A DNA stretch of 64,000 nt from Micromonospora sp. WMMD812 (GTDB taxonomy: Bacteria; Actinomycetota; Actinomycetes; Mycobacteriales; Micromonosporaceae): the NCBI RefSeq assembly GCF_027497215.1, contig NZ_CP114904.1:5723001-5787000 (forward strand). The letters are read 5' to 3'. The position numbers and the translations under genes are program-made. The notes beneath the pieces are model-generated. The model searched no databases, was not told where the DNA came from, and worked only from the letters and a program-made list of their open reading frames with translations. Shown here piece after piece: positions 20,591 through 24,375 of the stretch (position 1 is its first letter; every line of letters starts with the position of its first letter).

Positions 20591-21496
20591 GTGCTGCGGT
20601 TCGGCTTGTTCGGCACCGGTCACTGGGCGACGGAGACGCACGCGGCGGCGCTCGACACGCACCCGCGTGCCGAGTTGGCCGGGGTGTGGGGGCGTAACCC
20701 GGAGCGGGCCGCCGCGCTGGCCGAGCGGTACGGCGTACCGGCCTTCGACGACGCCGACGCGCTCATCGACGCGTGTGACGCGGTCGCCGTCGCCCTGCCG
20801 CCGGACATCCAGGCCGACATCGCCGTCCGGGCCGCCACCGCCGGCCGGCACCTGCTGCTGGACAAGCCGCTGGCGCTGACCCTCGCCGACGCCGACCGGG
20901 TCGTCGACGCCGCGCAGGGCTCCGGCGTCGCCTCGGTGGTCTTCTTCACCCAGCGCTACCAGCCGAACGTGACCGCGTTCCTCGCCGCCACCGCCGCGGC
21001 CGGCGGGTGGCAGCACGCCCGGGCGACCATGTTCGCGTCGATCTACCAGCCGGGCAGCCCGTACGCCGACTCGCAGTGGCGCATCCAGCACGGCGCGCTC
21101 TGGGACATCGGCCCGCACGCGCTCTCGATCATCCTGCCGGTGATGGGCCGGGTCACCCAGGTGGCCGCCATGAACGGCCCGAGCGGGATCGTGCACCTGC
21201 TGCTCACCCACGACGGCGGCGTCACCAGCGGCATCTCGCTGACGCTGAACGCGCCGGCCGAGGCGGTGGCCCGCGAGATCGTGTTCTACGGCGAGAACGG
21301 CATCGAGAACGCGCCGGCCCCGCAGACCGGCCCGGCGACCGCCTTCAGTGTGGCGATCGACCAGTTGCTGGAGGAGATCGAGGCGGGCACCCGGGACCAC
21401 CGCTGCGACGTGCGCTTCGGCCGCGAGGTGGTCGCCATCCTGGCCGCCGCCGAGACGGCCCGCACCGAGTCCCGCACCCTCACCGTCCCCGCCTGA
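20591..21496 (+). CDS. Gfo/Idh/MocA-family NAD(P)-dependent oxidoreductase
   Basis: This 301-residue protein has an N-terminal Rossmann domain (RFGLFGTGHWATE), the family's substrate-binding EKP-like motif as LLLDKPLALTLADAD (Asp replaces Glu in DKPL), and a C-terminal sandwich with WDIGPHALSIILPVMG. It probably oxidises or reduces a sugar or cyclitol. GTG 20591 follows GGGAG; other in-frame GTGs lie at 20579 and 20537. TAGCGT at 20533-20538 looks like a -10 element, which would exclude the earliest start. A long palindrome follows the gene. Confidence 0.85.
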   Translation: MLRFGLFGTGHWATETHAAALDTHPRAELAGVWGRNPERAAALAERYGVPAFDDADALIDACDAVAVALPPDIQADIAVRAATAGRHLLLDKPLALTLADADRVVDAAQGSGVASVVFFTQRYQPNVTAFLAATAAAGGWQHARATMFASIYQPGSPYADSQWRIQHGALWDIGPHALSIILPVMGRVTQVAAMNGPSGIVHLLLTHDGGVTSGISLTLNAPAEAVAREIVFYGENGIENAPAPQTGPATAFSVAIDQLLEEIEAGTRDHRCDVRFGREVVAILAAAETARTESRTLTVPA

Positions 21497-21500
21497 CCCA

Positions 21501-21512
21501 CCCCCCCCCCCC
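21501..21512 (+). repeat. Run of 12 cytosines
   Basis: A (C)12 tract lies just after the oxidoreductase stop codon, inside a wider C/G-only stretch (21497-21530). It lies outside any gene. It could be a sequencing weak spot or vary in length between strains. Confidence 0.85.
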
Positions 21513-21534
21513 GCGCCCCCGCGCCCGCGCCTCT

Positions 21535-21599
21535 GCGTTGATCATGAAGTTATTGCCGGTAGCGACGGCGTGTCGCGGCAACAACTTCATGATCAACGC
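21535..21599. repeat. Long palindromic intergenic element (24-bp arms), GATCATGAAGTT type
   Basis: Arms at 21535-21558 and 21576-21599 are complementary over 24 bases with one mismatch (a G-T wobble in RNA) around a 17-base loop. The arm contains GTTGATCATGAAGTT. It follows the Gfo/Idh gene and could end its transcription. It shares the core GATCATGMAGTT with the element at 24394-24464, which suggests a dispersed repeat family. Confidence 0.85.
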
Positions 21600-21664
21600 G
21601 GTTCGGTGCCGCGGTTCGGGGCCGTGGAACGCGGGGTGGCGGGGGTTGGCTGGGTGGAAATGGG

Positions 21665-21694
21665 TTGGGCGTGTTCGGCGGGCGCGGCTAGCCT
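21665..21694 (+). promoter_or_regulatory. Promoter of the erm leader transcript
   Basis: TTGGGC (21665-21670) and TAGCCT (21689-21694) are 18 bases apart. The -10 ends seven bases before the leader-peptide ATG, so the leader would be translated from an almost leaderless message. Confidence 0.5.
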
Positions 21695-21701
21695 GGCGGA
21701 C

Positions 21702-21821
21702 ATGTTCACGCACGCCCTGATCCAGGTGGTCGGCACGCCGGCCGCCCGGGGCCCCCTGCTGGCGTCCCGTCCGCGAGTCCGGCGTCCGGCCCTGGCCGGC
21801 CGGGACGCGACCCGCGACTGA
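21702..21821 (+). CDS. Erm leader peptide (39 residues)
   Basis: This short open frame upstream of erm starts at an ATG seven bases after a TAGCCT box. It encodes a 39-residue peptide beginning MFTHALIQVV and containing RPRVRR at residues 23-28. Arg-X-Arg is the type of sequence at which macrolide-bound ribosomes stall in the RLR class of erm leaders. The codons 21768-21785 overlap the 5' side of a hairpin (21762-21769 with 21801-21808). The peptide itself has no enzyme features. It is supported by position, promoter and RNA pairing, not by homology. Confidence 0.65.
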   Translation: MFTHALIQVVGTPAARGPLLASRPRVRRPALAGRDATRD

Positions 21822-21932
21822 CCGCAGGCGCACACCCGCGCCATCTCCAGGGCCGTCCGAGTCCCGATCCACTCGGACAGGCCCCGCTTCGGGCTGCCTG
21901 TCCGCCCCGTCGCCGAGCGGCGACAGACAGGA
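21762..21932 (+). promoter_or_regulatory. Attenuator region of erm: nested, mutually exclusive hairpins
   Basis: Five pairings can be read. P1 is GCGTCCCG 21762-21769 with 21801-21808. P2 is GTCCGAGT 21855-21862 with 21871-21878. P3 is CGGACAGGC 21874-21882 with 21896-21904, which shares bases with P2. P4 is GTCGCC 21909-21914 with 21919-21924. Extended P4 adds CCTGTC 21897-21902 with GACAGG 21926-21931, covering the erm ribosome-binding site. P3 and extended P4 exclude each other. This is the layout of a drug-induced attenuator. Confidence 0.6.
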
Positions 21933-21941
21933 CGACGACAC

Positions 21942-22739
21942 GTGGCGCCCCGCCGTACCCGAGCAACCGAACGCGACCGGTCCCGTCGCGTACTCTCCCA
22001 GAACTTCCTCGCCGACCCGGCCGCCATCGCCCGGGTCGTCCGGTCGGCCCGACCGGATCCGGACGGCCTCGTCCTGGAGGTCGGCGCCGGCCGTGGCCAA
22101 CTGACCCGCCCGCTCGCCGCCGCGAGCGGTCGGCTGGTCGCGTACGAGGTCGACCCGGCGGCCGCCGCCGAACTGGCCGCGGTCTGTGCCGCGCTGCCCC
22201 ACGTCCGGCACCGGCAGGCCGACTTCCTCACCGCCGAGCCGCCCGGCGAGCCGTTCGCGGTCGCCGGCAACATCCCCTGGTCGTTGACCTCGGCGGTGGT
22301 CCGCTGGTGCCTGGCCGCCCCGGGGTTGCGGGCGGCGACCCTGCTCACCCAACTGGAGTACGCCCGCCGGCGCAGCGGCGACTACGGACGGTGGACCCGG
22401 CTCACCGTGCTGACCTGGCCCGAGTTCTCCTGGCGGCTCGCCGGGCGGGTGCCCCGTACGGCCTTCCGCCCGGTGCCCCGGGTGGACGCGGGCATCCTGC
22501 GGATCGACCGGCGGCCGGAGCCGCTGCTGTCCCGGGCCGCGCTGCCCGCGTACCGGGAGATGGTGGAGCTGGGCTTCGGCGGCGCAGGCGGGTCGCTCGC
22601 GGCCTCGCTGCGGCGGCGGTATCCGTCGGCCCGGCTGTCGGCGGCGCTGCGCGCGACGCGACTGGCTTCGGAGACTCCGGTCGGGTACGTCTGGCCGGAG
22701 CAGTGGCTGGTGCTGTTCCGGCTCCTGCACGCCCGCTGA
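21942..22739 (+). CDS. erm: Erm-type 23S rRNA adenine N6-methyltransferase
   Basis: This 265-residue SAM-dependent enzyme should methylate A2058 of 23S rRNA and protect against macrolides, lincosamides and streptogramin B. Motifs are SQNFLADPA at the start, SAM-binding LEVGAGRGQLT, acidic YEVDP, RQADFL, and catalytic NIPWS (Asn-Ile-Pro-aromatic, with Trp where Tyr/Phe is usual). Basic C-terminal helices follow. KsgA/RsmA is the nearest alternative, but the short Arg-rich N-terminus and the leader/attenuator favour Erm. It begins with GTG after ACAGGAC. It ends at a strong bidirectional terminator. Confidence 0.88.
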   Translation: MAPRRTRATERDRSRRVLSQNFLADPAAIARVVRSARPDPDGLVLEVGAGRGQLTRPLAAASGRLVAYEVDPAAAAELAAVCAALPHVRHRQADFLTAEPPGEPFAVAGNIPWSLTSAVVRWCLAAPGLRAATLLTQLEYARRRSGDYGRWTRLTVLTWPEFSWRLAGRVPRTAFRPVPRVDAGILRIDRRPEPLLSRAALPAYREMVELGFGGAGGSLAASLRRRYPSARLSAALRATRLASETPVGYVWPEQWLVLFRLLHAR

Positions 22740-23118: not shown

Positions 23119-24375
23119 ATGCTGGTTCAGCGGCTCGGCGCGCCGAGCGACTTCGACCCCCTGCTGGAGCGCGTCCGGGACGCCCGGGTGGTGATGATCG
23201 GTGAGTCCACCCACGGCAGCTACGACTACTACCGGCTGCGGGAGCAGCTCACCCGGCGGTTGATCTCGGAGTGCGGGTTCTCGTTCGTGGCGGTCGAGGG
23301 CGACTGGCCGGACTGCGACCGGGTGCACCGGTCGGTGACCGGCGCGCCGGACGGCATCGCGGATCCCCAGGTCGCGCTGGAGCGCTTCGAGCGCTGGCCG
23401 ACCTGGATGTGGGCGAACGCGGAGGTGTCCCGGTTCTGCCGTTGGCTGCGGGCCTGGAACCTGGAGCGTCCGGCGGGGGAGCGGGCCGGCTTCCACGGGC
23501 TGGACGTCTACAGCCTCTGGGAGTCGATGCAGGCGATCTTCGACTACCTGGGCGAGGAGGACCCGGCGTCGCTGGAGGTCGCCCAGGACGCGTACTGCTG
23601 CTTCGAGCCGTACGGCAAGCGGGTCGAGGAGTACGGCGCGGCGAGCCGCTTCGTCTCCGCCCGGTGTGAGGAGGAGGTGGTCCGGCTGCTGGCCCGGACC
23701 CGGGAACAGGCCCTCTCCGACGGCCCGGACCGCTTCTCGGCCTGGCAGAACGCGGAGGTGGTGGCCGGCGCGGAGCGGTACTACCGGGCGATGGTGGCCG
23801 GCGGCCCGGACTCCTGGAACATCCGGGACACCCACATGCAGGACACGCTGGACCGGCTGCTCGACCGGTACGGCCCGGACGCGCGGGGTGTGGTGTGGGC
23901 GCACAACACCCACGTGGGCGACGCGCGGGCCACCGACATGGCCGCCGACGGGATGATCAACATTGGTCAGCTGACCCGGGAACGGCACGGGGCGGACGCG
24001 GTGGCCCTGGTGGGCTTCGGCTGCTACCGCGGGACCGCGGTCGCCGCGCCGCGTTGGGGATCGCCGGCCGAGGCGATGGTGATTCCTCCCGCCCGGCCGG
24101 GATCCATCGAGCGGCGGCTGCACGAGTTGATGCCGGAGCGGGCGGTGCTGGTCTTCGGCGGCGACGACCAGCCGGGGTGGGTCAGCGACACCATCGACCA
24201 CCGGGCGATCGGGGTGGTCTACGACCCGACGTTCGAGTCCTGGGGCAACTACGTGCCGACTCGCCTGGGGGAGCGGTACGACGCGTTCATCTGGTGTGAC
24301 GAGACCACCGCCCTGCACCCCCTGCCGGCCTACTCGACCACCGGCGAGATGGAGACCTACCCGGCGGGCGTGTGA
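23119..24375 (+). CDS. Erythromycin esterase family protein
   Basis: This 418-residue protein has the family's ordered motifs: IGESTHGSYDYY (catalytic-type His), AVEGDWPDCD, FHGLDVYSLWESM, VVWAHNTHVGDARA and GFGCYRGT. It resembles the broad Ere-like/succinoglycan-biosynthesis group. True macrolide lactone hydrolysis is known for EreA/B, but many relatives do something else. Its position 380 bases from erm and next to two efflux systems makes a resistance role worth testing. No signal peptide is visible. The ATG at 23119 lies close to the family start; no strong ribosome-binding site was seen. Confidence 0.85.
   Translation: MLVQRLGAPSDFDPLLERVRDARVVMIGESTHGSYDYYRLREQLTRRLISECGFSFVAVEGDWPDCDRVHRSVTGAPDGIADPQVALERFERWPTWMWANAEVSRFCRWLRAWNLERPAGERAGFHGLDVYSLWESMQAIFDYLGEEDPASLEVAQDAYCCFEPYGKRVEEYGAASRFVSARCEEEVVRLLARTREQALSDGPDRFSAWQNAEVVAGAERYYRAMVAGGPDSWNIRDTHMQDTLDRLLDRYGPDARGVVWAHNTHVGDARATDMAADGMINIGQLTRERHGADAVALVGFGCYRGTAVAAPRWGSPAEAMVIPPARPGSIERRLHELMPERAVLVFGGDDQPGWVSDTIDHRAIGVVYDPTFESWGNYVPTRLGERYDAFIWCDETTALHPLPAYSTTGEMETYPAGV

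Follow-up and report, generated by a model that had tools for sequence, protein, structure and literature searches.

A predicted WhiB7-type promoter and ribosome-stalling RNA switch upstream of a chromosomal erm gene in Micromonospora

The erm gene analyzed in this study is probably subject to two-tier inducible control, combining a WhiB7-type promoter with an RNA switch that would be driven by a stalled ribosome. The locus most likely represents a macrolide-inducible attenuator of known kind in a new, widespread form, for which induction is predicted. As deduced from sequence comparisons, the leader peptide and the putative RNA switch show strong conservation throughout the genus and partial conservation in the actinobacteria at large. 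The window, i.e., the whole stretch of 64,000 nucleotides from Micromonospora sp. WMMD812 to which the positions refer, is part of a single 7.13-Mb chromosome, and the erm gene is chromosomal. The following features were identified:

21657-21662, + strand: GAAATG, AT-rich WhiB7/WblC-type element just 5' of the -35 region
21665-21670, + strand: -35 element TTGGGC, placed by eye, 18 nt from the -10 element (an equal-scoring scripted match used a 16-nt spacing)
21689-21694, + strand: -10 element TAGCCT, 7 nt before the leader ATG
21702-21821 (stop included), + strand: leader peptide ORF of 39 codons, probably leaderless, product MFTHALIQVVGTPAARGPLLASRPRVRRPALAGRDATRD
21738-21743, + strand: segment 1, CCGGCC, codons 13-14, able to pair with segment 2 (putative role)
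21768-21776, + strand: Arg23-Pro24-Arg25, where stalling is predicted (P site, codon 24; A site, codon 25)
21786-21799, + strand: segment 2, codons 29-33, CCGGCCCTGGCCGG, third bases nearly fixed
21847-21862, + strand: segment 3, CCAGGGCCGTCCGAGT, nearly invariant in 82 aligned loci
21871-21882, + strand: segment 4, ACTCGGACAGGC, pairing with segment 3 (stem B) or segment 5 (stem C)
21896-21903, + strand: segment 5, GCCTGTCC, pairing with segment 4 (stem C) or the erm ribosome-binding site
21875-21882 with 21896-21903, + strand: stem C, compensatory changes at 21879:21899 and 21881:21897
21909-21924, + strand: hairpin D, GTCGCC/GGCGAC, compensatory change at 21910:21923
21926-21934, + strand: erm ribosome-binding-site region, GACAGGACG, conserved in the aligned loci
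21942-22739, + strand: erm, predicted 23S rRNA adenine N6-methyltransferase, GTG start, 265 aa

The erm gene, its promoter, and its leader

The product of 21942-22739 scored above the cut-offs of two curated models, namely NCBIfam erm_SHROVE (358.4 bits, cut-off 320) and Erm23S_rRNA_broad (241.4, cut-off 212), and was also matched by Pfam RrnaAD. According to these models, the predicted protein is an Erm methyltransferase, belonging to the ErmE/H/O/R group by NCBIfam. The named records nearest to this Erm are almost all from Micromonospora. Within the genus, Erm was found with E 1e-40 or better in 95 of 160 Micromonospora genomes. From these matches, 90 loci were taken (G086, G148, G021, G124, and G147 were left out), and the erm start was anchored in 89 of them, the unanchored locus L091 carrying an RLR leader of its own. 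Across the phylum, only 13 of 396 genomes contained Erm at E 1e-30 or better, indicating that the erm gene itself is patchy.

Several further observations were made on the gene and its setting. The Erm matches of the genus members G021, G124, and G147 were partial only (104-186 residues) and possibly represent degraded, rearranged, or cut copies. Just 3' of erm, on the same strand, a Pfam erythromycin-esterase-family protein is encoded at 23119-24375 (399.8 bits, below the NCBIfam EreB cut-off). An inverted repeat with GTTGATCATGAAGTT arms 31 nt apart is located between the upstream gene and the erm promoter (21537-21597). This arm occurs in 37 copies in the genome, partly as opposed pairs approximately 46 bp apart, compared to none in the reversed control, and the element is an interspersed palindromic repeat.

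For S. coelicolor, the WblC consensus was given as GAAAWY/TKGMNN/TANNNT, with most transcription starts located 7-8 bp after the -10 element (PMC7157823). The promoter in the window deviates from this consensus by two mismatches. Promoter counts were obtained for 80 of 84 genus loci, the other four leaders starting less than 60 nt from a contig end, and 72 of the 80 promoters showed at most two mismatches, compared to 18 of 1600 shuffled controls. At two positions just 5' of the -35 region, A was present at 94% in these loci, and the -10 TANNNT ended 6 or 7 nt before the ATG in 80/80. This distance indicates that the leader transcript is probably leaderless, with its predicted start at or next to the ATG. 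The promoter fits the WhiB7/WblC regulon type, and WhiB7 dependence is predicted. The genome also encodes a WhiB protein with the AT-hook-like tail RPRGRPRK, which is a putative WhiB7. At positions 1044-1470 of L177, the whiB gene for the protein with this tail is preceded by an ORF and by a GC hairpin with TTTTTT after it, as expected for an attenuator of the whiB7 type.

The leader ORF, in which RPRVRR occupies codons 23-28, was present in 88 of the 89 anchored genus loci, the remaining locus, L082, being cut by a contig end. Near-identical loci were partly retained in this set, and locus counts are not equal to independent events. Arg-X-Arg was found in 85 of the 88 testable leaders and Arg-Pro-Trp in three (L040, L055, and L073, with otherwise the same leader); 84 of the 89 loci featured an Arg-X-Arg leader within 700 nt of erm, and in L052 the leader lies further upstream, at -825. 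With its conserved +X+ motif in a short ORF upstream of a resistance gene, the predicted peptide belongs to the Arg-X-Arg (RLR) class. Leader length in the 84 loci ranged from 37 to 41 residues (39 in 50 loci), and 112 to 385 nt separate the leader stop from the erm start. Despite this variable spacer, the last 100 nt or so before erm form a conserved core, which was detected in 89/89 anchored loci (82 by motif and seven by the RNA model). L018 and L048 lack the exact core motif and are outside the 82-locus counts, although the RNA model detects both. Replacement of Arg-Pro-Arg by Arg-Pro-Trp was seen in six loci altogether, L185, L187, and L190 being those outside the genus, and the Trp perhaps plays the part of the Arg in the A site.

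These results agree with the sequence-only reading, which had proposed an Erm methyltransferase, a visible promoter, and a 39-codon leader with RPRVRR, and which had named conservation of the leader frame and of paired bases in orthologs as its own check: the leader frame is kept in the genus loci, and so is the pairing of stem C, as described below.

Constraint on the stall motif and the RNA segments

In the aligned genus leaders, Arg23, Arg25, and Arg28 are invariant (Arg23 and Arg25 in 84/84). The third bases of Arg23 and Arg25 are variable, and Arg25 is written with all four CGN codons (A in 41, C in 21, G in 19, and T in three of the 84 leaders), which indicates selection on the amino acid. 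At codons 27 and 29-33, the third bases are nearly fixed, suggesting that the RNA is constrained there too: Arg27 is CGG in 83/83, Pro29 CCG in 83/84, Ala30 GCC in 83/83, Leu31 CTG in 73/73 (residue 31 being Pro in ten loci and Ser in one), Ala32 GCC in 74/75, and Gly33 GGC in 83/83, these codon counts being inflated by shared ancestry, with Arg25 as the internal control. Stalling is predicted at the first Arg-X-Arg, R23-P24-R25, the position in best agreement with the RNA.

The sequence 21788-21795, within segment 2, is complementary to 21847-21854, and codons 29-33 can pair with CCAGGG(C/T)C further downstream. The five pairs nearest 21854 are possible in 81-82 of 82 loci and the other three in 71, 71, and 76; the failures of these three in 11, 11, and 6 of the 82 loci count against the model. 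Each pair between segments 1 and 2 is possible in 75 to 82 of 82 loci, without compensatory change. A stem formed by 21762-21769 and 21801-21808, which the sequence-only reading had proposed to be covered by the stalled ribosome, is indeed a perfect 8-bp complement in the window; however, just 17 of the 82 loci can form the full set of eight pairs, and it was rejected as a conserved first stem. The pairing controlled by the ribosome is more likely that of 21788-21795 with 21847-21854.

Compensatory changes in stems C and D amounted to nine cells, a value reached in none of 500 shuffles, and the slid control gave at most two. In one lineage carrying GGACCGC/GCGGTCC, both sides of stem C are changed while pairing is kept and the ribosome-binding site is unchanged. 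The downstream stem first placed at 21874-21904 was thus recovered as 21875-21882/21896-21903, with changes on both sides in relatives. For stem B, no compensatory change was found among the 82 genus loci, and in the set comprising stem B and the ribosome-binding-site pairing, the sole compensatory change was that of hairpin D. Pairing of 21897-21902 with 21926-21931 is complete in at most 73 of 82 loci and lacks compensatory change, and GTCC (21900-21903) can pair with GGAC (21930-21933) in 82/82; one alignment of the binding-site region covered 45 of 73 references. Since the pairing of segment 5 with the binding site shares bases with stem C, the two are mutually exclusive, as the sequence-only reading had put it. 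Regarding that reading as a whole, the Arg-X-Arg leader and the exclusive downstream stems were retained, and its first stem was replaced.

Folding of the window transcript was only modestly better than that of shuffled sequences (z -1.96, single sequence), so that single-sequence folding proves little and the comparison of loci does more. A search for known RNA families in 21400-22200 returned a sub-threshold mascRNA match only.

Ribosome position and competing explanations

In the proposed mechanism, the WhiB7-type promoter would produce a transcript starting at or next to the leader ATG. In the drug-free state, the leader would be read through, segments 1 and 2 as well as segments 3 and 4 would pair, and segment 5 together with hairpin D would hold the erm ribosome-binding site. 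As suggested by conservation and by the Arg-X-Arg leaders studied elsewhere, a drug-bound ribosome would come to a halt when Pro24 occupies the P site and Arg25 the A site, hiding the upstream leader and leaving codons 29-33 free just past its edge. These codons would capture segment 3, whereupon segment 4 would pair with segment 5, as calculations on truncated transcripts support, and translation of erm would follow.

The ribosome position was scanned on truncated transcripts for 61 of the 82 loci. The probability of stem C was 0.88 with codon 24 and 0.86 with codon 25 in the P site, compared to 0.54 without a ribosome, 0.51 at codon 26, and 0.30-0.42 at codons 27-36; at codon 24, it exceeded 0.5 in 58 of 61 loci. 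For all 82 truncated transcripts, a ribosome at codon 24 raised stem C by more than 0.1 in 50 and lowered it in two. Folding with and without a ribosome on codons 23-28, as suggested along with the sequence-only reading, favored stem C at codons 24 and 25, and the modeled switching of mutually exclusive stems by a stalled ribosome holds on truncated transcripts only. On full-length transcripts, the effect of codon 24 on stem C was inconsistent (up by more than 0.1 in 17 and down in 17 of 82), and equilibrium folding did not open the erm ribosome-binding site in the 82 loci. Its mean free fraction was 0.095 without a ribosome, 0.115 at codon 24, and 0.070 at codon 26, with codon 24 raising it by more than 0.05 in 22 and lowering it in nine of 82 loci. 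The site stayed at about 0.08 free with stem C forced and likewise with stem B forced. With stem C forced, it partly pairs with GTCC copies in segment 3, and the RNAalifold consensus of the core joins segment 3 to the binding site, this pairing enclosing stems C and D. Full-length thermodynamic folding thus failed as a proof of binding-site release, and since the opening is absent from folding, the direction of the last step is taken from known erm systems.

An unlikely explanation is transcription attenuation, in which the exchange of stems B and C would stop the polymerase before erm via a U-less hairpin or Rho. Once the ribosome has reached codon 27 or beyond and hides segment 2, stem B increases relative to stem C, and the switch could act on the polymerase. 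For the Streptomyces gene tlrA (ermSF), transcriptional attenuation has been described, which counts for this possibility. However, no T run longer than three was found between leader stop and erm in 82/82 genus loci, the 8 nt after stem C contain at most four T, and no terminator-like site was found in 21500-22000, whereas a GC hairpin followed by TTTTTT does precede the whiB gene of this genome that encodes the AT-hook-like tail. Intrinsic termination, considered as a GC hairpin with a U tract, was rejected on these grounds, and in view of the missing U-tract terminator, control is more likely translational than transcriptional. It is quite improbable that the sensing stall occurs early, at the conserved codons 6-8 (HALI), as in classic short leaders, with Arg-X-Arg as a second or auxiliary stop. 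Leu6 (82/84) and Ile7 (77/84) are conserved with nearly fixed codons, the scan of 61 loci has a second, lower stem C peak at codons 6-8 (0.78-0.84), and among the 32 leaders of further family loci (L178-L217), 21 contain HALI or HALL. In only two of 22 other leaders examined, both from Micromonosporaceae genera, was HALI or HALL present, and [RK]-X-R is kept nonetheless; the main peak of the scan and the six-codon spacing described below also point to Arg-X-Arg.

Induction by the WhiB7-type promoter alone, with a translated leader and another role for the RNA structure, e.g., in mRNA stability, appears very unlikely. It would be in line with the consensus match, with the equilibrium folding that does not open the binding site, and with the activation by WblC of the Erm(O)-type gene of S. 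coelicolor (PMC7157823), but it leaves unexplained the arginines kept with free third bases, the fixed third bases of segment 2, and the compensatory changes. The two-tier control by promoter and stall-driven switch accounts for these and is preferred.

Leaders in other actinobacteria and relation to known systems

To the genus loci, 72 further loci were added, 70 of them from outside the genus; sampling of the family comprised 38 of 84 matching non-genus genomes together with G086 and G148, for which the upstream search found no leader candidate. An ORF of 10-60 codons with the AT-rich element, the -10 element, and a leaderless start was located 5' of erm in 56 of the 72 loci (one each), and 51 of these contain R-X-R. 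Among 1440 shuffled upstream regions, 0.5% had such an ORF and 0.2% one with R-X-R, and the reverse strands gave 0/72. Non-genus promoters were within two mismatches of the WblC consensus in 49 of 54 cases, a figure that is partly circular because most promoters were chosen with the AT-rich filter. The core RNA model matched 27 of the 38 non-genus family loci with E 1e-3 or better and one place in the genome of the window. In this genome, a degenerate DNA pattern for the leader motif gave 85 matches, compared to 35 in the reversed control, and was uninformative.

The spacing between motif and RNA recurs in these leaders. In 33 of 54 non-genus leaders (a set including four leaders added by hand), the X of the first [RK]-X-R lies six codons before an [AVT]-L pair, mostly written GCCCTG; the spacing is five codons in six leaders and four in one, and the pair is absent in 14. 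Complementarity of at least seven bases between leader and spacer peaks at +15 and +18 nt from X in the other loci (22/46 each), any other offset reaching at most 12/50, and at +15 in the genus (52/82), with a second, lower peak at +24 (43/82). For a ribosome halted with X in the P site, the uncovered RNA begins at roughly these offsets, +15 and +18. L211, L212, and L230 have leaders of 17-21 aa with R-X-R and a GC hairpin near the erm ribosome-binding site, apparently without stem C, a layout that is possibly a simpler form of the switch.

The ErmSV and ErmSF leaders of Streptomyces are long and contain a late R-X-R. The leaders of L148 (Streptomyces) and L218 read RPRRAPGALTG and RMRRGPGALTG, with the same six-codon spacing; the N-terminal part of the ErmSV/ErmSF-type leaders is unrelated to that of Micromonospora, and the core RNA model did not match L148 or L218 at a threshold of E 1. 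The ermC attenuator has a simpler stem set. For ermC/ErmCL, a stall-driven change in RNA structure is described to expose the erm ribosome-binding site (PMC10219788, PMC6685928); such a change is predicted here as well, the stall peptide being different. In ErmDL, whose RLR comprises residues 6-8, the stop places Leu7 in the P site, with Arg8 to follow, and telithromycin requires the Arg-X-Arg motif more strictly than erythromycin (PMC8298421). The Micromonospora leader likewise has Arg-X-Arg before erm, with X predicted for the P site and the second Arg for the A site, but it differs from ErmDL in the position of the motif (codons 23-25), in a probably leaderless start, in the WhiB7-type promoter, and in the RNA. 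The tlrB (yxjB) gene of B. subtilis has an RYR leader with a toeprint placing X in the P site (PMC6851288), and it shares with the present locus the Arg-X-Arg leader, a 23S rRNA methyltransferase, and, as predicted here, sequestration of the ribosome-binding site. It differs in encoding RlmAII rather than Erm, in its 9-codon leader with SD, and in its terminator and NusG pausing, a U tract being absent here. No paper on a Micromonospora erm leader or its core RNA appeared among the literature matches listed, which are mostly titles and beginnings of abstracts with few subscription journals.

More tentatively, and with somewhat more doubt than confidence in the whole, actinobacterial erm genes may share an old, largely vertical unit of WhiB7-type promoter, leaderless Arg-X-Arg leader, and switch, the latter lying six codons beyond the stall codon, a distance of exactly one ribosome edge; with a stop at about codon 24, the unit would sense drugs that let long chains pass, e.g., natural ketolides, and drugs halting synthesis early would not be those sensed. 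If true, this would contradict the view, as published in PMC11264731, that the ancestral erm state was without uORFs, and the finding questions the claim that erm uORFs arose independently from an ancestor lacking them. In 70 of 84 genus loci, the leader starts more than 250 nt from erm, so that a search confined to nearer upstream sequence would miss it. The leaders compiled here, about 140 in total (88 from the genus and 54 from elsewhere, some near-identical), represent a dense natural set for Arg-X-Arg stalling, many of them with a predicted stall codon and RNA partner. Micromonospora is a genus known for antibiotic producers, and in its erm locus one gene would couple two drug responses, namely WhiB7-dependent transcription and ribosome stalling.
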